Below, in pieces: positions 21,966-33,142 of a stretch of DNA of 64,000 bases. Every line of letters starts with the position of its first letter. Positions within the stretch are counted from its first letter, which is position 1. Under the pieces are notes generated by a model. It saw nothing but the letters and a program-made list of their open reading frames with translations, was not told where the DNA came from and did no database searches. The position numbers and the translations under genes are program-made. Origin of the DNA: an uncultured Bacteroidales bacterium (lineage in GTDB: Bacteria; Bacteroidota; Bacteroidia; Bacteroidales; Bacteroidaceae); NCBI GenBank assembly GCA_902763885.1, contig CACWTU010000006.1, positions 266,913 to 330,912 on the forward strand, written 5' to 3'.

Positions 21966-22403
21966 TCATATAGAGTTTCCAACCCCATCTCCCGTAGCCA
22001 AAACCGCCTCAAACTGCCTTGACACGGCATCATAAAGACGTTCCATCAATATCGGCTTGGCAACATAGTCATTCGCACCCAGACTCAAAGCCCTCTCGAT
22101 ACTGTCATTGGTATTGAGCGCGGAGACCACCACAATTCTCATTGACGAATACTCGGGATTCTCACGCACCTTACTGATCACCTCAAAACCATTCAATACC
22201 GGCATCATAAGGTCCAGGAGCAACAAAACCGGCCTGCTCTCAGCTATCTTCTCAAGTGCCTCCTGCCCATTCAAGGCCGTAACGACATTGAAGTTATACC
22301 TGGAAAGCATCTTTTTCAGCATAACCAGATTCAGCTCGATATCATCGGCCAACAAAACCGTGTAGGCAGACAAATCAGCATCCAAGATATTATACACTCC
22401 CAT
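21966..22403 (-). CDS. Receiver-only response regulator
   Basis: 145 residues from the ATG at 22403. Receiver-domain residues: acidic pair Asp20-Asp21 (LLADDIE), phosphoacceptor Asp64 (LLLDLMMP), Ser/Thr switch (VVSALN) and Lys116 (VAKPI). There is no output domain, so it must work through a partner, for example by phosphotransfer or by binding another protein. It lies 12 bp after the AraC-type gene, so the two are probably co-transcribed. No histidine kinase is adjacent. Confidence 0.88.
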   Translation of the reverse strand: MGVYNILDADLSAYTVLLADDIELNLVMLKKMLSRYNFNVVTALNGQEALEKIAESRPVLLLLDLMMPVLNGFEVISKVRENPEYSSMRIVVVSALNTNDSIERALSLGANDYVAKPILMERLYDAVSRQFEAVLATGDGVGNSI

Positions 22404-22415
22404 ATCAAACAAAGT

Positions 22416-23741
22416 TTATGAAGCCATCCTTCGTTTAGCCATCTCAGAATACCGGTCCTTCCATATCTTAGGCGTCACACCCGTCAATTTGCTGAACGTA
22501 GTATTAAAAGCGGAAGCACCGGAGAAACCGCAGGCAAGAGCTATATCCTTCTGCGTCACATCACCATGCCCAAGAATATACAGCTCTGCATAATCAATCC
22601 TGAGCATATTAAGATAACTCATGAAAGACATCCCGTAGGTACGCTCCATATAATCATTCAGTTTTACCTTTTCCACCCCAAGCCATTCCGCCGCATGGGA
22701 CAGTGAAAGATCGCGTCTCAAATACATCTTCCGCTCCAGCATGAACCGTTCAAACTCAGAATCAAAAGATTCGCCAAGAGGCTCATCGGAGAAAGCATCG
22801 GCAAAATCCACTGGTGGTACATTCACAGACGGGCCGGAGCCGGCAACCCCCTGAGAAGCGGAAGAAGATTCAGAATAGCCGCCACTTTCAGAAACATCCG
22901 CTACGACATCCGCAGACGGAGTAGCCGCATCAGGATAGCCACCGAACCTCATAGATTTAAACAAGCCATTGAGAGACTGTTTTTTCTGTTGCCCCGCGGT
23001 TCCCACAAAAGCAATCAACGACAAGAGGGAAGCAAGGAACAGACATGCAGAAACAGTCATAAGCACACTGTTCACATAACACCGCCTGCCAAGCAAGAGA
23101 GCAGGGATAATGGTAAGCAGAATGATAACAGTAAGGAAATACTGGACTGGAACGATCTCACACCTCTGACCCTTGAAAAAGAATCCGAAGACATTCTTAG
23201 GCCTACATGTCCCATTGATTGCACAGGCCATCATATTGGTAGCAAACAACAGGAAACACATAATCAGGAATGTTCCGAAAACATACGTATAACAGGCATA
23301 GAAAACAGCCTGACTCTTATTCTCCATAAACGCGAACACAGGCCCCTGAAGAGTATTGGAATACAGGAACAGCCTTACACAATCCTCAAAGCCTGCTGAA
23401 AATACCGACTCCACACCGACAATAAAATGCAGAACCGGAAGAATGCTACAAAATCTATAGAAATAGCCCGATGCCTTCTCCCCACGACACTCTTTAATAT
23501 ACGATATAAAGCAGGGAACTATAGCCAAAGCACAAACCTGTTCAAACAAGGTGAAATGAAGCATAAGCCTTGATTCAGGATCAGCCGAAAGGAATCCGAA
23601 AAGAAAAAACAGAGACAAAACGGCGATAAAGCGCCTTGCCTTCTTAAAAACATCATTCCGCGGAGCAAAAAAAAGATACGCCAGAAACCAGAAAAAACCG
23701 GCCAGGCACGGAATCAAAATCAGCAGAGACTGTATACGCAT
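22416..23741 (-). CDS. Membrane-anchored AraC-type transcription regulator
   Basis: 441 residues. The first 240 or so contain six to seven hydrophobic segments (for example LLILIPCLAGFFWFLAYLFF), followed by a Ser/Pro-rich linker and, from about 335, an AraC/XylS domain with two helix-turn-helix units (LSLSHAAEWLGVEKVKLNDYM and DIALACGFSGASAFNTTFSK). This places a DNA-binding domain on a membrane protein, which would sense an envelope signal directly. First gene of an operon with a receiver-only protein. The target genes are unknown. Confidence 0.88.
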   Translation of the reverse strand: MRIQSLLILIPCLAGFFWFLAYLFFAPRNDVFKKARRFIAVLSLFFLFGFLSADPESRLMLHFTLFEQVCALAIVPCFISYIKECRGEKASGYFYRFCSILPVLHFIVGVESVFSAGFEDCVRLFLYSNTLQGPVFAFMENKSQAVFYACYTYVFGTFLIMCFLLFATNMMACAINGTCRPKNVFGFFFKGQRCEIVPVQYFLTVIILLTIIPALLLGRRCYVNSVLMTVSACLFLASLLSLIAFVGTAGQQKKQSLNGLFKSMRFGGYPDAATPSADVVADVSESGGYSESSSASQGVAGSGPSVNVPPVDFADAFSDEPLGESFDSEFERFMLERKMYLRRDLSLSHAAEWLGVEKVKLNDYMERTYGMSFMSYLNMLRIDYAELYILGHGDVTQKDIALACGFSGASAFNTTFSKLTGVTPKIWKDRYSEMAKRRMAS

Positions 23742-24500: not shown

Positions 24501-25850
24501 ATGAAAAAACTTTCAACTATCGCTCTCATTGCTTTTACAGTATTGATGAGTGCATGTGGTCAAAAAGACCCGGGTCTGAAGGACGCCTACAAAAACTATT
24601 TCAAGATTGGTGTTGCCGTTACCCCGCGTAACGTCACTGATTCACTTCAGGCATCAATTATCCTCAAGGAGTTTAACAGCATCACTGCTGAGAACTGCAT
24701 GAAACCCGGTGAGATTCACCCCCAGCCCGGCGTATGGAATTTTGCTCAGGCTGACGCTATCGCAAACTTCTGCCGTGAGCACGGCATCAAGATGCGTGGT
24801 CACTGCCTTGTATGGCACAGCCAGTTCGCCAACTGGATGTTTAACAAGTATGACGAGAACGGCAACCAGGTTGTAGAGCGTGACGAGAACGGCGATACCA
24901 TTTGGGTAGAGCAGCCCGCTCGTGGCGGATTCGGCGGCTTTGGTGGCGGCTTCGGTGGTTTCGGCGGCTTTGGTGGCGGTGCTCCTCAGGGCGGCCAGCG
25001 TCCACAAGGTGCTCCTCAGGGTGGCCAGCGCCCGCAGGGCCAGGGTGGTTTCGGCGGCTTCGGTGGCCAGCGTCCTCAGGGTCAGGCTCAGGGCCAGGCT
25101 CCTCAGATGACCAAGGTTCCAAAGTATGCTAAGGCAACCAAGGAAGAGTTCTACGATTCACTCCGTGCTCACATTCAGGTTGTTGTAAACCGTTACAAGG
25201 ACGTAGTTTATTGCTGGGACGTTGTAAACGAGGCAATGAGCGACGGCAACAACCCCGATGTTCCTTACGAGCAGTCATTCCGTCAGTCAACCGCTTATCA
25301 GCTCTGCGGTGACGAGTTCATCCTCAAGGCATTCCAGTTTGCTCACGAGGCTGATCCTAATGCAGGTCTGTTCTACAACGACTACAGCGCTTGGACTCCT
25401 GCCAAGAGAACTTACATCTATAACATGGTTAAGAAGCTTCAGGCTGAGGGTGCTCCTATTACCGGTATCGGTATGCAGGGTCACTACAACATCTATGACA
25501 ACCCCACCATCGAGGATTTCGAGAAGGCTATCCAGATGTATCTTGAGCTTGTTGATGACATCCAGATCACTGAGTTCGACGTTCGTATCAACCACGAGGC
25601 TGGTGGTCAGCTTCAGTTCAGTCGCGGCGAGGGTCAGGTTCTTACCGATTCTATCGCTCAGCTTCAGATGGCCAAGTATGAAGAGCTCTTCAAGGTTATC
25701 CGCAAGTACAAGAAGAACTTCTCATGCGTAACATTCTGGAACCTTGGTGACCGTGATTCATGGCTGGGTGCCAACAACTTCCCCTTGCTGTTTGACGGTG
25801 AGTATCAGCGCAAGCCTGTTTACTACACTGTACGTGACTTTAAGAAGTAA
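24501..25850 (+). CDS. GH10 endo-1,4-beta-xylanase lipoprotein with Gly/Gln-rich insert
   Basis: Cleaves internal xylan linkages. 449 residues; lipobox LMSAC gives lipid Cys19. GH10 landmarks: GHCLVWHSQ (100-108), acid/base Glu244 in WDVVNEAM, nucleophile Glu358 in ITEFD, and FWNLGDRDSW near the C-terminus. Residues about 142-202 (bases 24924-25106) are an insert of GGF, GQRPQG and QGQA repeats placed within the catalytic barrel after the WHSQ strand, where GH10 enzymes normally have a short loop. Lysine codons are nearly all AAG, suggesting high expression. Monocistronic, followed by a strong terminator. Confidence 0.93.
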   Translation: MKKLSTIALIAFTVLMSACGQKDPGLKDAYKNYFKIGVAVTPRNVTDSLQASIILKEFNSITAENCMKPGEIHPQPGVWNFAQADAIANFCREHGIKMRGHCLVWHSQFANWMFNKYDENGNQVVERDENGDTIWVEQPARGGFGGFGGGFGGFGGFGGGAPQGGQRPQGAPQGGQRPQGQGGFGGFGGQRPQGQAQGQAPQMTKVPKYAKATKEEFYDSLRAHIQVVVNRYKDVVYCWDVVNEAMSDGNNPDVPYEQSFRQSTAYQLCGDEFILKAFQFAHEADPNAGLFYNDYSAWTPAKRTYIYNMVKKLQAEGAPITGIGMQGHYNIYDNPTIEDFEKAIQMYLELVDDIQITEFDVRINHEAGGQLQFSRGEGQVLTDSIAQLQMAKYEELFKVIRKYKKNFSCVTFWNLGDRDSWLGANNFPLLFDGEYQRKPVYYTVRDFKK

Positions 25851-25905: not shown

Positions 25906-25911
25906 GCTTTG

Positions 25912-25985
25912 TGACTCCGTTGGGATTCGAACCCAAGACCCACAGCTTAGAAGGCTGTTGCTCTATCCAGCTGAGCTACGGAGCC
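25912..25985 (-). tRNA. tRNA-Arg (anticodon TCT)
   Basis: 74-nt cloverleaf on the minus strand: acceptor GGCTCCG/CGGAGTC with one G-T pair, D arm GCTC/GAGC, anticodon arm ACAGC-CTTCTAA-GCTGT (anticodon TCT), T arm TTGGG-TTCGAAT-CCCAA, discriminator A. CCA is not encoded. It reads AGA codons. Confidence 0.95.
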
Positions 25986-26027
25986 ATCCTTTTAGCGGGT
26001 GCAAAAATAGCGCATTATTTCCACAAA

Positions 26028-26759
26028 TCAAACCTCTTTCCCGCTTTTTTGACTCCACATCAGAATAATAGGTAACGGAAGCCAATAAATAAGGAATGAG
26101 ATAACACGCATGGAATTCTGAGTCAAGCCAAGCAAAGCGTCAATATGCGTGTATTCAAGAGTCTGAAGTAACTGTGCGGCCACAAGCATGGTTACAAGAA
26201 AATGGGCAAACTGAGGCAGTATGGTGCAGAACGCATCAGCACAATCACCTGCTGTACGGAAAGTCTCGGTAGAGAGTCCATAAACAAGTGACGGCAGGCA
26301 GACGGCAAGCATCAGCAGAAACATAAAGCCTTCATAGAGCGGACTGCTGGCAAGTGTCCCTGTTATGCCAAGAAGCAGATGGCTACCGGCAAAAACGCCT
26401 AATACTATTACCAGGATATAGATGGCCAGCACCGCCATACTAATATAGAAAGCCGTCGCCTCCTTTGGTGAAAGACTGCGTATTCGTGATAATGCACGGA
26501 ACAGGCCGCTTCCCCTACCCGCACCGATGGCTATGCAGAGCATCAGCGCATTACCTATCGGAGCATTACCCAGACATGATGCAGCAGTCCTGATAGTCCA
26601 CCTAATGCCTGGCACACCCAGCACGCTGCGAAGCGCCAGCTCACCATTGCTGTCCACCCTGCTTATTTCCATTATGCTTCCTATCCAGGAGATAAGAACC
26701 ACCACAAAAAGCAACAGCAGATAAACAATGGCAGGATGCCACCACCACTTCTTACTCAT
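26028..26759 (-). CDS. Multi-helix membrane protein, last gene of the tandem-kinase operon
   Basis: 243 residues from the ATG at 26759, which overlaps the response-regulator stop by 8 bp. Six or so hydrophobic segments (for example PAIVYLLLLFVVVLISWIGS and FYISMAVLAIYILVIVLGVF). IRWTIRTAASCLGNAPIGNALML faintly recalls AbgT-type transporters, but the protein is far shorter than that family, so I do not assign a function. The translational coupling suggests it works with the two-component system, perhaps as an accessory sensor or the regulated transporter. Confidence 0.75.
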   Translation of the reverse strand: MSKKWWWHPAIVYLLLLFVVVLISWIGSIMEISRVDSNGELALRSVLGVPGIRWTIRTAASCLGNAPIGNALMLCIAIGAGRGSGLFRALSRIRSLSPKEATAFYISMAVLAIYILVIVLGVFAGSHLLLGITGTLASSPLYEGFMFLLMLAVCLPSLVYGLSTETFRTAGDCADAFCTILPQFAHFLVTMLVAAQLLQTLEYTHIDALLGLTQNSMRVISFLIYWLPLPIILMWSQKSGKEV

Positions 26760-27471
26760 CGGGTTCAAGATTTGACGGGTCAATTATATGAAGTTCTATA
26801 GCGCGAACCACCAGACGGGTTACGTTTACGCCACGCTGCTCACCCTCCGGAAAGAGACGGGTCACCAGATCCGCCTGACGTTTCTCAAGCGACTTGCTGC
26901 TGAAAGGCATGGTACGTAACTCACTAATCATATCCTTGGTATATCCTAATGCCAGATGACGAAGGAAACGCTCATCGTACTCATCAATCTCATACTCAAT
27001 ACTGGCACTGCGCTGCATCTTCTCATCTGTCACAGCCTTACGGAAACGCTCCACCAGTTTCTCCAAGACAGGCTGATTGAACACATAGCGTTTGCCTGAC
27101 ATGACATCCATGACCTCACTGCGGGTAAGCAGTTCACCTGTCTTGAGAACAATGCCATGGGCACCGGCATCAAGCACATCGGCCCATAACTTCTCATTGA
27201 GGAGTTCACCGGTAAAGACAAGCACCTTGACGCTGCTCTTCCGGGTGATTTTGCGGCAGATATCCACACCCACTGTCGTGGAACCGCCCAGTCCCAGATC
27301 AAGCAGAACCAGATCAGGCTGTGCACCGCCATCCATCAGAGTCCAGAACTCACGCTCCGTCTGCGCGGTACCTATCACCTCTATCTCCGGAATGTCATTC
27401 CTGATAATTGACAATGTCCCTTTCAGTTCCAGTGACACATCCTCAACCACAATTGTCTTGATTTTTTCCAT
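26752..27471 (-). CDS. Response regulator with a C-terminal putative DNA-binding domain
   Basis: 239 residues. Receiver domain: Glu10-Asp11, phosphoacceptor Asp58 (LLDLGLGG), Thr87 and Lys110. The C-terminal part (about 155-239) is helical; DERFLRHLALGYTKDMISELRTMPFSSKSLEKRQADLVTR by position resembles a LuxR/sigma-4-type helix-turn-helix and is my basis for a DNA-binding output. It lies 12 bp after the giant kinase gene, its probable partner. Confidence 0.85.
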   Translation of the reverse strand: MEKIKTIVVEDVSLELKGTLSIIRNDIPEIEVIGTAQTEREFWTLMDGGAQPDLVLLDLGLGGSTTVGVDICRKITRKSSVKVLVFTGELLNEKLWADVLDAGAHGIVLKTGELLTRSEVMDVMSGKRYVFNQPVLEKLVERFRKAVTDEKMQRSASIEYEIDEYDERFLRHLALGYTKDMISELRTMPFSSKSLEKRQADLVTRLFPEGEQRGVNVTRLVVRAIELHIIDPSNLEPDE

Positions 27472-27483
27472 ATATCGTATTAT

Positions 27484-30400
27484 TTATTCTGCTTTAGGAA
27501 CGGTGAACCATATCACGATACCATCAGGCTCACTCTCGGCATTTATGCGGCAACCGGGATGTCCGAACGCCTCGTCATGCTCACGTATTATCTGCCGGCA
27601 CAGCACGTATGCCATATTCTCCTTATTCATTAGTGGAGTGAACAGCCCGTCAAGCACCTCCGGCTCAGGTGCTACGCACTTACGGTGCAACATGAACCTC
27701 ACGAAATTACCTGCAGGAGCTGCTTCAAGTGTCATATCACCGGCATCAGCCATTCCCTTCTCAAGAAGATTCTCCAACAAGCACTCAAGCATCACCCGGT
27801 CAGCTGACACTGTCAGATCAGACAATCCGATGTTTACCTCACCGCTGTACCCCACACGACTCTTTGCCTTCTTTATATAAGCGCACAAATCATCAGCAAG
27901 CTCACTCACTCTGAAAACGTCACGATGCAACAGTTGTCCCTTTGTCTGTGACAGTGCATACTGGCTCAGTATCCCGAATATCTCACGGTAATAATCCACC
28001 AGTTCCTCCATATCCGATATCTGCGTACCGGTACGCTCTGCAACCGCTGTGGATTCAATCTCACTTACCATCTGCACTATCCTGTTGGGATACCATACAG
28101 TCTCATGCTTGAGCGTGGAGAGGCAGTTGTCAAGTATAAGGTTACTGACATGCAGACGGTTCTCCTCATATCTTATACGCTCCAGTTCATCCTCTATCTG
28201 CTCTATGTCACGGAACCCGGATTCAAAGCGTATGACACAACTGTACAGCGCAGTAGCCAGGTAATTCACCACCATACCTTTGATAATCTGCCATGTCTCA
28301 TCAGGCTCATGTTCCAAACGGAAACCCACAGCGCCTATCATGCGTTCCTCATCATCCAGCGTCAGCATAAGCGGCAGGGCATGACACAAGCCATCGGTAG
28401 AGCTCTGCTCCGCGCCTTGAATCAGACAGGCATTTACACGGTCTGCAAGGCGTTCATCGGCAGGTCCTTCCTTATGCTCTGCCGTTATCATGCGGCCTTC
28501 ATCATTGAGCGCCACCATAATGGAGCGCATATCAACCAAATGGCACAACTCCACATAAATGCCGTCAACAAGACGGTTAACTACATCATCTGCGTTGAAA
28601 TTATCCAGGTCAGTTACGGCAGTCATATCTGATATCCTGTTTACCACGCGGATAGTCTGTTGCAAATCACTACGGAACTTCATCCAATGACGCAGATGCA
28701 TGACATAACGTGCAAGCAGTAGCATCAGGAATATCAACGCGAACACAATAACCGCTATGGTCAGATTACTGTTGGTGCGCTGAAGCTCACGGCAATCCTC
28801 CTCAATCTTCCACTCACCAAAGTACATCTTGAACAGCCTCAGGTATGCATCATCATTATACCGATAAACATCCCAGTCGCGTAGGGCCAGAGCAGAAACG
28901 GCAATCTCATTACGGAGCCACAATATGGTCTCATAGTCAGTAGGAAAATTGTCAACTCCAAGCCAAAGTATCTCTGATGGCACCTCAGTATCATATATTT
29001 TGAGAAGCACATCATCCTGACCGAGATTATTCAGCCAATCATCATTTAATGCCATGAATGCAGAATCAGCATACATAAGAGCCTCTTCAAAACGACCTTC
29101 AGTATTGCACAGGTATGTCTGGTTGGCATAGTCATAAGCTCTGTAAAGCAGGCTGTCCGCATCCTGCGCACTGGCAGTCACCCCCGCGCACAGAATAAGC
29201 AGGATGCTCAGCGCACGCCTCAAACCCTTAGGCAGACGGAACGAGAAACGGCTGCCCTTACCCGGCGTGCTCTCCACATTGAAACTGCACACATGGAACA
29301 GGTCATCGGCCTTGCGGTATTTCTCAATGATACCCTTGCAGTTCATCAGGCCGAATCCGCTGCCCTTGCCCTGGCTATGCCCCTGCCCTATACGCTCCGG
29401 ATCAAGCACTTTTTCATCACGGATAAGACGGACGTCTTCTTCACTAAGTCCTACGCCAGTGTCAGTGACAGCTATCTCAACATAATCATCTCCCTGCTCA
29501 GCCTCTACTGTAACCTTACCGCCCGCAGGAGTGAACTTGCGTGCATTATCCGCCAGAGTATTTATCATGAAAAGAGTGAGCACACGGTCGGCACGTACCA
29601 CAGCATCTGTACTTATCACATCAAGCTCCACACCCTTCTGCATGAAACTGCGGCTGCTACGGCTCACAATATCAAACAGCTGCTGCACAGGGAAACTCTC
29701 TATGTTCAGAGCCACTACACCCTGACGTATGCGTATCCACTGTGACAGCAGGTCATTATACTCGTTGATACGCTCAGCAAGCTCACGTACATACTGCAGG
29801 CTCTGAGCGTATTGCGCACTGTCAGCCGGCATCTCAGCCAGATGACGTATCTCCGAGCGCATACGGTCTATAAACGGCAGGCACTCTGCCACCACCTGGC
29901 AGCAGGTCTTACGGGCCAGATTCTCACGTTTATTGTTATCAGCATGCAGACTATACAGATAATGCTGCTTCTCTGCCTGTTTAAGGCGGTCAGCCTGTCC
30001 TACCAGTTCATCAGCATTCTTAAGAGCAGCCTTTAGGAACGGAGCCACCGTATTCAGCACGGCACGGTTATCACGGCTTACGCGCTTTCCGCCCCATGAA
30101 GCCGATATCTCTGCATTTTCATCAATAGTAACTGATTCAGCCCCAGTCAGCATAGTCAATTCCGGAGCAACAGTACCATTAAGCCATTCTATTATATCAG
30201 CACCGGCAGGAGCGGGCCGTAATATGCTTTCACAAAGACCTACGGTCTTCTGCATCATCACCACATACTTTCTGTTGGCGGCATTGATACGCTTATGGAA
30301 AAGCAGGATAAAGATCAGAAGCAATATTACTGCAGCGGCAACGGCATAAAGCATTCCCACCAGACGGCGGTTTGAACGTTCCAACAGTATGGTGCGGGCC

Positions 30401-31653
30401 TCATAGCGGCGATCCAGACGGATATTCTTCTGAATCTCCAGATATACGGTACGGTTGTAGTCTGATGCAAGTTTGTCATCCAGCCCCGAGTATGCCAGGC
30501 TCATCTGTTCACGCAATGAAGCCATGCACTCCGGCACCACGCTGTGAGGCATTGCATCCATCCACTCCTCCTCCACAATCCTGCCGTCACTGCGGTAATT
30601 CTCCAGCGGCTCCAGCCTAAGCCCGACGCTGTTCAGACGGAAGTTGTCATTCAACATGCCAAGAGCCGTACCCAGTGCGCCCAAAGCCTCCTCATACAGA
30701 CCACGCTCAATATAACAGGAAGCCAGCAATCTTTCACACTCAATGATCTCATACTGACCACCATATGAGGCCGACAGCTGCAATGCCTTGAGAGCCAATT
30801 GCGTAGGCAGGAATTCCGGCTGCACACCCGATGCATTCAGACGTGAAAGCATATCTTCACTTACGCCCGCCATCACCTGATCCGGTCCGTATTCCAGCAG
30901 CAAAGAGCAAATAGCGCTTATGCTCAGTGCCTGCATCCTCACATTATTGTAACGTGTTGCGCTACGCAGGCAATTATCCAGGCTGCGCAATCTCTGCGAA
31001 AGCATATCGGCCTGGCTGTAAGCATTAATGCCTATTCCCAATCCATGCATGTAAGTGTACATCAGGAAGCGGTCATGATCCTCACGCAGCAGATTATCCG
31101 GGATGACATATGACATTTCACGTCCGGCCTGACTAAGCTGTTCCAGCTCAAACCAGTATCGGGCCGATTCCATCCGGAACGAACGTTCCAGTGAAAGCAG
31201 CCGCTCCGTCTGGGCTTCATTCAACGCCTCCTGCTCCTCATGCAGGGCACGCAGGTTAAGCAGTATGCTGTTGCGGTATTCATAGAATGAAACATTATCC
31301 GATGTACGCTGGCATATACGCATGAGCCCTATCTGCGATGCCACGACCTCCAGCATATTACCCGTAATAGACGGGACGGAACTGTATAACTCCCACGCCT
31401 GGGTAAAGTCCATGCGCAGGAATGCTACACGCGCCAGGGTATTCACAGCCTTAGCGCGCTCATCAGTATGACGGCCTGCAACCTTCTCAGCAAATCGCGC
31501 ATATTGCTCAGCCGAATCCAAATTGTTCCAGAGATAAGATATGGCTTTCTCATTCAGGTCAAACGCCGTAAGCCCTGAATTCTGCAACGGAGCCTGCCTG
31601 CAAGCAGCAAGACAGAACAACGCACATAACAACCAATATCTCAACCTTATCAT
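27484..31653 (-). CDS. Giant tandem sensor histidine kinase (two kinase units in one chain)
   Basis: 1389 residues. Unit 1: lipoprotein-like signal (LAAC, Cys18), helical TPR-like periplasmic region (about 30-420), membrane helix (431-453), coiled region, then a histidine-kinase ATPase with N box (NTLADNARKF, 698-707), G1 (DTGVGL, 731-736) and G2 (GKGSGFGL, 762-769). Unit 2: a second signal-like helix (812-830, ending TASAQ), a short extracytoplasmic region (831-960), membrane helix (964-985), a GAF-like region (about 1015-1140), a possible phosphoacceptor His1183 (STLKHETVW) and a C-terminal ATPase-like domain in which the N and G boxes are hard to recognise. Gene order with a response regulator supports signalling. 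It resembles Bacteroides proteins with DUF5112/DUF5113 domains, from memory and not verified. Confidence 0.85.
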   Translation of the reverse strand: MIRLRYWLLCALFCLAACRQAPLQNSGLTAFDLNEKAISYLWNNLDSAEQYARFAEKVAGRHTDERAKAVNTLARVAFLRMDFTQAWELYSSVPSITGNMLEVVASQIGLMRICQRTSDNVSFYEYRNSILLNLRALHEEQEALNEAQTERLLSLERSFRMESARYWFELEQLSQAGREMSYVIPDNLLREDHDRFLMYTYMHGLGIGINAYSQADMLSQRLRSLDNCLRSATRYNNVRMQALSISAICSLLLEYGPDQVMAGVSEDMLSRLNASGVQPEFLPTQLALKALQLSASYGGQYEIIECERLLASCYIERGLYEEALGALGTALGMLNDNFRLNSVGLRLEPLENYRSDGRIVEEEWMDAMPHSVVPECMASLREQMSLAYSGLDDKLASDYNRTVYLEIQKNIRLDRRYEARTILLERSNRRLVGMLYAVAAAVILLLIFILLFHKRINAANRKYVVMMQKTVGLCESILRPAPAGADIIEWLNGTVAPELTMLTGAESVTIDENAEISASWGGKRVSRDNRAVLNTVAPFLKAALKNADELVGQADRLKQAEKQHYLYSLHADNNKRENLARKTCCQVVAECLPFIDRMRSEIRHLAEMPADSAQYAQSLQYVRELAERINEYNDLLSQWIRIRQGVVALNIESFPVQQLFDIVSRSSRSFMQKGVELDVISTDAVVRADRVLTLFMINTLADNARKFTPAGGKVTVEAEQGDDYVEIAVTDTGVGLSEEDVRLIRDEKVLDPERIGQGHSQGKGSGFGLMNCKGIIEKYRKADDLFHVCSFNVESTPGKGSRFSFRLPKGLRRALSILLILCAGVTASAQDADSLLYRAYDYANQTYLCNTEGRFEEALMYADSAFMALNDDWLNNLGQDDVLLKIYDTEVPSEILWLGVDNFPTDYETILWLRNEIAVSALALRDWDVYRYNDDAYLRLFKMYFGEWKIEEDCRELQRTNSNLTIAVIVFALIFLMLLLARYVMHLRHWMKFRSDLQQTIRVVNRISDMTAVTDLDNFNADDVVNRLVDGIYVELCHLVDMRSIMVALNDEGRMITAEHKEGPADERLADRVNACLIQGAEQSSTDGLCHALPLMLTLDDEERMIGAVGFRLEHEPDETWQIIKGMVVNYLATALYSCVIRFESGFRDIEQIEDELERIRYEENRLHVSNLILDNCLSTLKHETVWYPNRIVQMVSEIESTAVAERTGTQISDMEELVDYYREIFGILSQYALSQTKGQLLHRDVFRVSELADDLCAYIKKAKSRVGYSGEVNIGLSDLTVSADRVMLECLLENLLEKGMADAGDMTLEAAPAGNFVRFMLHRKCVAPEPEVLDGLFTPLMNKENMAYVLCRQIIREHDEAFGHPGCRINAESEPDGIVIWFTVPKAE

Positions 31654-32399
31654 CTTGTCTCTATAGTTTCAGGCGTAAGCTGTAACATGAAAGCCGCCTC
31701 AAGCCCGTATTCGGTATATGCAGAAATCATAGCCTCCCTGGTTGATTTCACATTGTCCGCAAATACCCTGCAGCCAAGCCCGTCATCATCAACATCGAGC
31801 CTCAATCCTGAATCCGATGAGTGCCAGCCCACAAACATCCCCTTCTCCAGTCCACGGATTCTAAGATGCACAGCCTCACCGTTATCCGGATACTTAGAGT
31901 CAGAACTCAGCACCATAAACAAAGGTCCGTCAGATCTGTCAAGCACCTTTTCCGTAAGTTCCAGTCCGTCAATATCAATTATAGTCTCCTGTTCATCAAG
32001 AACTGAACACTCCTCAGAGTTTACTGTTACGCCTGTGATATAGTTTCTGTATGCCGGATTGAAAATCCTGCTCATGACAAGCCCTTCACAACCTGTCACC
32101 TCGCAGTCAGCCAGAATCATACCGTCACCGCTCTCCGCCACATACAGCACACCCGTCTTGCTCTCAAACTTGCAGTTACGGAACACCGCACCGTATGAAT
32201 GATTCAGCACTATGCTGTCCGTCACGAAAGTGCAGCCGTCAAAAAGCACCGGCCATGATACGTCAACCGTCCCGTTGAATGTCCTGTTACTGAAACTGTT
32301 CAGTATCGGCAACACCTGAGCCTGCACGACACTTGTTGCGGAAATACACATTGCCACAAACAACATGCACCATCTCTTTAACAGCTTTGATATTGCCAT
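31650..32399 (-). CDS. Secreted beta-helix-like protein, first gene of the tandem-kinase operon
   Basis: 249 residues with a signal peptide (cleavage near VVQAQ, residue 28). Residues about 45-130 show short repeated strands (FDGCTF, FRNCKF, LADCEV, spaced 20-25 residues), the pattern of a right-handed parallel beta-helix. I cannot assign a family. Its stop overlaps the start of the giant kinase by 4 bp (ATGA), so it is coupled to the sensor and may be a periplasmic ligand-binding or accessory subunit; that role is inferred from context only. Confidence 0.75.
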   Translation of the reverse strand: MAISKLLKRWCMLFVAMCISATSVVQAQVLPILNSFSNRTFNGTVDVSWPVLFDGCTFVTDSIVLNHSYGAVFRNCKFESKTGVLYVAESGDGMILADCEVTGCEGLVMSRIFNPAYRNYITGVTVNSEECSVLDEQETIIDIDGLELTEKVLDRSDGPLFMVLSSDSKYPDNGEAVHLRIRGLEKGMFVGWHSSDSGLRLDVDDDGLGCRVFADNVKSTREAMISAYTEYGLEAAFMLQLTPETIETR

Positions 32400-32455
32400 A
32401 ACCGCAAATTTATTCTTTTTTTCATTACCTTAGCCCCTTAGAATTGATAATTACC

Positions 32456-33142
32456 ATGCGGTGCATTGTACCAATAGCAACCATAAGGACCGGATTCCCC
32501 ACAAAATTCGGTATCCCCAGACAAAGCGGGCTTGTGCCTGAGCTCAAGGGAACGATTGTATTCAATCCTGAATACCGCAACCCGGATGCACTGCGTGGTC
32601 TTGAGGGATTCAGCCATATCTGGCTTATCTGGGAGTTCTCAGAGGCTGTACGTGAGGATTGGTCACCCACTGTACGCCCGCCACGGTTGGGAGGAAATAC
32701 ACGGTTAGGAGTATTTGCAACCCGATCACCGTTCCGCCCCAACCCCATAGGGCTCTCATGCGTAAGGCTGGATTCAATTGACCTGAGCACACCTGACGGC
32801 CCTGTCCTGCGCATAAGCGGAGCAGACCTCATGGACGGCACACCCATATATGACATCAAGCCTTACATTCCATATACAGACTGTCAGCCCGATGCCACCT
32901 CAGGGTTCACCGGAACGGTAAGCATGCATCGTCTGAACGTAATCATTCCGGACAGTTTGGCATCAAAAACAAAACCCCAGACGCTTGAAGCACTCCGGGG
33001 TATTCTTGCTGAAGATCCGCGACCGCGTTATCAGGATGATCCTGACCGTGAATACGGATTTGATTTTGAAGGCTATTCAGTAAAGTTCAAGGTTCCTGAC
33101 CCTGATACTCTGACGGTTACTGAAATAATGCGGAACAGATAA
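32456..33142 (+). CDS. trmO: tRNA m6t6A37 methyltransferase TrmO
   Basis: 228 residues from the ATG at 32456. TsaA/TrmO family: VPIATIRTGFPTKFGIPRQ, the FSHIWLIWEF segment, TRSPFRPNPIGLS and LDGTPIYDIKPY-like DLMDGTPIYDIKPYIPY are the conserved blocks. It uses SAM to N6-methylate threonylcarbamoyladenosine at position 37 of ANN-decoding tRNA-Thr. A near-consensus box (TACCTTAG) lies about 25 bp upstream. Divergent from the tandem-kinase operon; convergent with the DUF1573 gene, 2 bp apart. Confidence 0.93.
   Translation: MRCIVPIATIRTGFPTKFGIPRQSGLVPELKGTIVFNPEYRNPDALRGLEGFSHIWLIWEFSEAVREDWSPTVRPPRLGGNTRLGVFATRSPFRPNPIGLSCVRLDSIDLSTPDGPVLRISGADLMDGTPIYDIKPYIPYTDCQPDATSGFTGTVSMHRLNVIIPDSLASKTKPQTLEALRGILAEDPRPRYQDDPDREYGFDFEGYSVKFKVPDPDTLTVTEIMRNR

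Follow-up and report, generated by a model that had tools for sequence, protein, structure and literature searches.

In the window (the whole stretch of 64,000 nucleotides that was analysed, from an uncultured Bacteroidales bacterium) an operon was found whose histidine kinase, P0002, is, as judged from the alignment with its relatives, a tethered split kinase that carries the ATP boxes on one module (A) and the acceptor histidine on another (B) of the same polypeptide. The operon also encodes a response regulator (P0003) and a membrane protein of AbgT descent (P0004), likely a descendant of a transporter that has turned into a part of a signalling system. The divided catalytic labour of the kinase and the lost transport core of the membrane protein are the most unusual features of the operon, the parts of which are listed in Table 1.

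Table 1. Positions in the window of the operon genes, of their domains and of the candidate promoter element.
Feature	Positions	Strand	Details and basis
Candidate -7 promoter element TAAATTTG	32405..32412	-	TAnnTTTG consensus, starts 13 nt 5' of the first ATG
P0001, secreted protein, first gene of the operon	31650..32399	-	249 aa; Pfam and AlphaFold model
P0002, tandem (tethered split) histidine kinase	27484..31653	-	1389 aa; 4-bp overlap with P0001
P0002, DUF5112 sensor region of module A, residues 32-293	30775..31560	-	Pfam
P0002, module A, residues 545-815: DHp-like helices without conserved His, and canonical ATP-binding domain	29209..30021	-	Alignment
P0002, DUF5113 region between the modules, residues 833-988	28690..29157	-	Pfam, hydrophobicity
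P0002, module B, residues 1130-1389: acceptor motif LSxxKHETxxYP and degenerate ATP-binding domain	27487..28266	-	Alignment
P0002, codon of H1183	28105..28107	-	Single histidine invariant across 119 kinases
P0003, response regulator	26752..27471	-	239 aa; 12-bp gap after P0002
P0004, AbgT-derived membrane protein without transport core	26028..26759	-	243 aa from ATG; 8-bp overlap with P0003
P0004, residues 2-93	26481..26756	-	Matches columns 3-97 of the full-length operon AbgT profile
P0004, residues 92-217	26109..26486	-	Matches columns 234-359 of the full-length operon AbgT profile

The preliminary description had placed four genes on one strand (-), joined by a 4-bp overlap, a 12-bp gap and an 8-bp overlap; the ORF coordinates agree with it in position and in junctions. 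Its gene content (a secreted beta-helix protein, a tandem kinase, a response regulator and a membrane protein) was recovered with Pfam, the beta-helix match being weak: P0002 contains DUF5112, HATPase_c and DUF5113, P0003 a receiver domain and DUF5932, and P0004 a partial AbgT domain. The divided labour of the kinase modules and the missing transport core had gone unnoticed in the preliminary description. For P0004 a TTG at 26783 gives a longer ORF; an ATG at -8 or -11 bp is common among the relatives. Just 3' of the operon and on the same strand lies a tRNA-Arg (TCT) gene (25911-25985, -) with an element of its own, TATTTTTG, at 26009. The window also contains a gene for a GH10 xylanase-like protein (24501-25847, +) with a Gly/Gln/Pro-rich low-complexity insert of about 60 residues inside the catalytic domain; the Pfam GH10 match of this protein is split into two stretches.

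Among 61 genomes of the family, 50 contain the response regulator, each in a single close copy (61-100% identity); G013, G025 and G051 show a weak second match (31-33%), and the G016 gene is split into two pieces. These 50 of 61 genomes, and no others, also carry the kinase marker DUF5112, each within an open frame of 988-1544 aa; G053 has its DUF5112 kinase on a separate contig (C24:191708). An AbgT-like gene stands beside the regulator in 47 of the 50, and none was found in G006, G030 and G034 despite the presence of kinase and regulator. The 11 family genomes without the regulator gave no match to PF03806 (E <= 0.001). Relatives beyond the family were rejected, the matches in the order and the phylum being weak or partial. 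The order-wide search for the regulator (E <= 1e-10, 149 genomes) yielded two family members and, among the 147 genomes sampled elsewhere in the order, 8 with weak generic matches only (26-35% identity); for module B the same 149 genomes gave, besides the same two members, 6 genomes with weak matches. DUF5112 searched across the phylum (118 genomes) gave, besides G000, 6 genomes in which the match spans only the initial 60-70 positions of the profile; one match exceeds the cut-off.

A contig scan of named genomes, from which 80 of 108 confirmed relatives were retained, was combined with 49 genome regions and the window to a set of 130 loci. The 80 named loci are assigned to Bacteroidaceae, Prevotellaceae, Prevotella or Bacteroidales and come mostly from metagenome assemblies of ruminant and other guts. 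At least three loci are duplicates, the same genome being present in two collections, and the 119 full-length kinases comprise 116 distinct ones. The kinase adjoins the regulator in all loci save eleven: nine (L041, L042, L079, L081, L082, L136, L145, L144 and L161) run into a contig end or have a broken frame, and in L053 and L114 the regulator and the AbgT-like gene have no kinase adjoining.

By profile test an AbgT-like gene is present 3' of the regulator in 126 of 130 loci, and in all but three of the 126 its frame opens at most 60 nt from the regulator's stop codon. Presence was tested again by profiles since a wrong ORF had first been picked 3' of the regulator in L049, L091, L099, L100, L110 and L115, with L142 doubtful; the wrong ORF of L099 was dropped from the AbgT counts. 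Four loci (L049, L115, L120 and L133) have kinase and regulator and no AbgT-like gene within up to 2.6 kb 3' or to the end of the available sequence, from which it follows that the AbgT-like gene is not indispensable. The idea of a conserved signalling unit thus stands for kinase, regulator and membrane protein (126 of 130 loci). It does not extend to four genes: their adjacency was checked in the relatives and fails because the beta-helix gene is found in only 19 of 119 loci, which leaves a core of three.

On the operon strand between 26000 and 32600 the motif TAnnTTTG, which we take to be the consensus of the Bacteroidetes -7 element, occurs twice, as TAAATTTG and as the element of the downstream tRNA gene; its background on this strand of the window is 0.47 per kb. 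This distribution is consistent with, and no proof of, a single transcript of the four genes. Inside the operon, 3 of 130 loci have the motif at most 100 nt before the regulator gene, and 2 of 126 have it at this distance before the regulator gene's end, at which the following gene begins. In the 150 nt 5' of the kinase it occurs in 46 of 119 loci, so that the consensus by itself proves no promoter there. TAAATTTG ends 5 nt 5' of the first ATG (32399), and the operon mRNA may therefore be nearly leaderless.

The AlphaFold model of P0001 (mean pLDDT 80) comprises a signal helix, a beta-helix (residues 34-142) and an Ig-like domain (residues 160-241), the domains being named from the strands and from weak matches. 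Pfam Beta_helix is matched at E <= 0.1 by 15 of 17 members of the P0001 family, and the Foldseek matches of the model were weak, Ig-like and mixed in kind, and in no case below E 0.001. The loci with the gene 5' of a full-length kinase (18 with the duplicates L113 and L044 taken as one) all fall inside one clade of 23 rows that contains the window. In five loci of this clade (L047, L054, L055, L061 and L073) the kinase is present, the sequence was searched and the gene was not found; in the last four of them the ORF before the kinase resembles, by eye, the window's ORF antisense to trmO, which in the window (32456-33139) lies just past the beta-helix gene. This suggests that the beta-helix gene was gained locally or was lost several times.

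The beta-helix protein could bind the ligand for the kinase, as its partner, and would then be the system's true sensor. It is predicted to be secreted, its gene comes first after the candidate promoter and, in 14 of the 19 loci, shares 4 bp with the start of the kinase gene, and its dN/dS is 0.11-0.24 (4 pairs). The presence in so few of the loci, and the five relatives of the same clade that lack the gene as far as searched, make this role rather unlikely, and we prefer to see in P0001 what would be a periplasmic accessory of one clade.

The split in the kinase was read from an alignment of 119 kinases of at least 950 aa, none of them cut by a contig end. In module A the residues N698, N703, D731, G733, G735, G766 and G768 are each conserved in 119 of 119 rows, as are the motifs DxGxG and GFG[LI]. 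Around its expected acceptor site (columns 579-599) histidine occurs in at most 3 of 119 rows at any column; the non-conserved histidines nearby are at column 570 (55 of 119), 578 (28) and 600 (22). Module B is the complement: DxGxG and G[FLIVY]G[LI] are both found in 0 of 119 rows, and H1183 is present in all 119, within LSxxKHETxxYP. The acceptor histidine and the ATP-binding domain are thus both on the chain, on different modules, in every one of the 119 kinases. The two modules are homologous (hhalign probability 99.3 over 241 columns), H1183 being paired with a non-histidine position of module A. At position 1187 of module B 115 of 119 rows have Y or W, and the N/T of the HExxN/T phosphatase motif is missing.

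Between modules A and B a crude hydrophobicity count gave two transmembrane-like segments in 94 kinases, one in 21 and three in 4. In P0002 one hydrophobic segment, at residue 814, precedes DUF5113 and another transmembrane-like segment, at 964, lies inside the DUF5113 region; with two such segments modules A and B are predicted to be cytoplasmic and DUF5113 periplasmic. The segment at 814 looks by eye like a signal peptide, presumably a former one, which suggests that the kinase arose by fusion of two kinase genes. The fused full-length ORF was seen in 119 of the 130 loci, and in these separate polypeptides were not seen. The dN/dS of the kinase is 0.05-0.14.

Tethering by itself is no proof that the two modules use each other. 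Module A could act on another kinase or an HPt protein and another kinase could act on module B, so that the chain would be the hub of two pathways, and a relay hub of this kind would show the same complementary losses. The complementarity of A and B in 119 of 119 kinases and the one co-occurring regulator of the same operon are, however, most simply explained by mutual use, and we consider the hub improbable. The regulator has its full set of receiver residues: E10, D11, D58, T87 and K110 are present in 129 of 129 regulators (one of the 130 was excluded from the count as too short), the PDB matches span the receiver and little beyond it, and dN/dS is 0.00-0.04. Elsewhere in the window (21966-23741, -) a stand-alone receiver-domain protein adjoins an AraC-type regulator with a hydrophobic N-terminal half.

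P0004 matches PF03806 with 62.7 bits (cut-off 27). Against the profile of full-length operon AbgTs it aligns in the two pieces given in Table 1, columns 98-233 and 360-484 being unmatched. The full-length proteins (480-506 aa) occupy the same operon slot in 13 loci. Of the short forms that were picked (183-256 aa), 104 of 105 match the profile of the full form, most of them over two stretches, roughly columns 3-100 and 235-355, and the most divergent ones in parts of these two stretches. (One contig-cut full form, L145, had been tallied among 113 short ones; the corrected numbers are 112 short and 14 full.) The lost segments carry hairpin and substrate motifs, whose patterns are found in 12, 13 and 13 of the 13 full forms and in none of the 104 short forms.

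A profile of 58 short forms searched against the PDB found MtrF (4r1i, E 1.2e-25) and YdaH (4r0c, E 1.8e-24), each in two pieces, and no other match at E <= 1; on MtrF the match covers residues 22-126 and 253-387. P0004 and its short relatives thus share two segments with each of these transporters, and P0004 differs from them in missing both segments with the hairpins and substrate motifs. The AlphaFold model of a short form (mean pLDDT 88.6) gave AbgT chains as the top five Foldseek matches (TMq 0.62-0.70, probability 1.00; E-values 0.003-0.012, none below 0.001), the sixth match having a probability of 0.18. The retained segments are, we assume, the inner frame of AbgT (TM1, 2, 5, 6 and 7), which forms the dimer; TM3, 4, 8 and 9 with both hairpins would be what was lost. 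For elevator transporters the available part of one paper states that substrate binding is mostly in the transport domain, where hairpins are often found, and that the scaffold makes the subunit contacts (PMC7329351). Lacking both hairpin and substrate-motif segments, P0004 should not transport as MtrF and YdaH do.

In an AbgT tree rooted on 23 AbgTs of other families the 104 short forms are one clade (SH-aLRT 98) and the 13 full forms lie outside it; it is a quick tree of 211 columns, for which 23 of 25 outgroup loci gave a usable protein. The unrooted tree of kinase and regulator also needs one change between full and short (support 67), and its midpoint root, as drawn, leaves the full forms not basal. 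A single loss of the transport core fits the rooted AbgT tree.

Is the short form only what remains of a lost transporter, in decay and kept because its translation is coupled to that of the regulator? Many of its rows have diverged to 21-30% identity with P0004, the shortest are about 183-189 aa long, and the AbgT-like gene was not found in 4 of 130 loci. Against decay stands a dN/dS of 0.04-0.15 in 11 pairs, in the range of the kinase, with dS at 1 or above in 5 of the 11 so that those ratios are rough. The wide presence of the gene in the loci, the single clade of the short forms and the positions kept nearly invariant among them (S24, W25, G51, R53, W54, P67, G85, S139, P140, G144 and G161) point the same way. 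The AbgT remnant is, on this comparison of codons, under purifying selection; dN/dS likewise speaks against reading it as a pseudogene, and we hold the relic to be very improbable.

The 61 family genomes were also searched with PF03806 (E <= 0.001). No short-form genome had a match away from the regulator; such matches were seen in G009 and G037, where they are weak and in frames of 533-534 aa, and in G004 (a contig-split piece), and all three genomes have a full form beside the regulator. Five regulator-bearing genomes missed by the search have a divergent short form according to clade profiles, and in three others none was found. That another gene of the genome supplies the core, the remnant being one subunit of a split transporter, is a reading for which the separate scaffold-like and transport subunits of ECF transporters would be a precedent (available part of PMC7329351). 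It finds no support in this search or in G000 (91% complete), which has no AbgT gene besides that of the remnant, and we give it hardly any credence. That the AbgT frame does something for the kinase is the simplest account of these sequences.

We propose that H1183 of module B is the phosphorylation target of module A, on its own chain or on the partner chain of a dimer, and that module B would hand the phosphate to D58 of the regulator, whose DUF5932 domain would bind DNA. DUF5112 and DUF5113, both predicted to be periplasmic, would have to cooperate for output; with two sensor regions that need each other the kinase could act as an AND gate. The AbgT remnant would be a dimeric membrane platform coupled to the kinase, as co-sensor or as brake. 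We think this account as a whole, from module A via H1183 to the regulator with the remnant as platform, probable, with room for error. The ancestral transporter may already have had a signalling role beside the kinase, a role that would have outlived transport. More tentatively, and somewhat short of an even chance, we suggest that the whole moving transport domain was lost in one event early in this large family of gut bacteria, the dimerisation scaffold being kept for signalling, and that the scaffold now serves the tethered split kinase, whose two half-active modules, with a periplasmic sensor each, would make that kinase a one-protein AND gate.

UhpC is a transporter-like co-sensor, a transporter homologue encoded with the two-component pair UhpB/UhpA. 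The operon of P0004 resembles it in having a transporter homologue alongside a two-component pair. To our knowledge such transporter-like co-sensors keep the whole transporter fold, and none is an elevator transporter without its core. In DivL, a pseudo-histidine kinase, a tyrosine takes the place of the histidine. Module A is like DivL a kinase-like module without the histidine and differs from it, as far as the available part of PMC4211667 goes, in that DivL is a separate protein, whereas module A keeps its ATP boxes and is fused to the presumed acceptor.

The nearest likeness to the kinase is CheA3-CheA4 of Rhodobacter sphaeroides (PMC3591291), where, according to the part of the paper at hand, ATP use and phosphate acceptance are also on different units, each of them incomplete. 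The units of P0002 differ in that they are on one chain, have transmembrane-like segments and separate sensor regions, and are homologous to each other and HisKA-like, not CheA. The same part of PMC3591291 uses the HExxN/T phosphatase motif, absent from P0002, to pick bifunctional candidates and tallies HisKA proteins without HATPase as split-kinase candidates; a description of a tandem tethered split kinase was not found in it. Hik36-Hik43 of Synechocystis is, in the available part of PMC7656254, like P0002 a split kinase that works with one response regulator, but the two genes are at distant loci and of CheA/HPt type. The published split kinases in these partial texts are pairs of proteins (PMC3591291, PMC7656254). 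Literature searches, as far as their listings tell, brought up nothing on this operon system. Among papers joining AbgT, two-component system and histidine kinase none was on such an operon, going by title and beginning of the abstract, and DUF5112, DUF5113 and DUF5932 are named in no paper of the literature searched. With published split kinases coming as protein pairs and no such operon found, we take the tethered tandem form to be a new variant.

A split kinase on one chain, kept in 119 of 119 relatives, is a naturally occurring system for dissecting trans-phosphorylation in its order, its geometry and its logic, and the unit to which it belongs is present in 50 of the 61 sampled genomes of its family. 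Some genera have a full AbgT and most sampled loci the remnant, beside the same kinase and regulator, which amounts to a natural experiment on signalling transporters and makes the signalling part of such a transporter directly testable. If the proposal is true, the scaffold can be the seat of signalling in a transporter-like co-sensor, and transport would not be needed for it.
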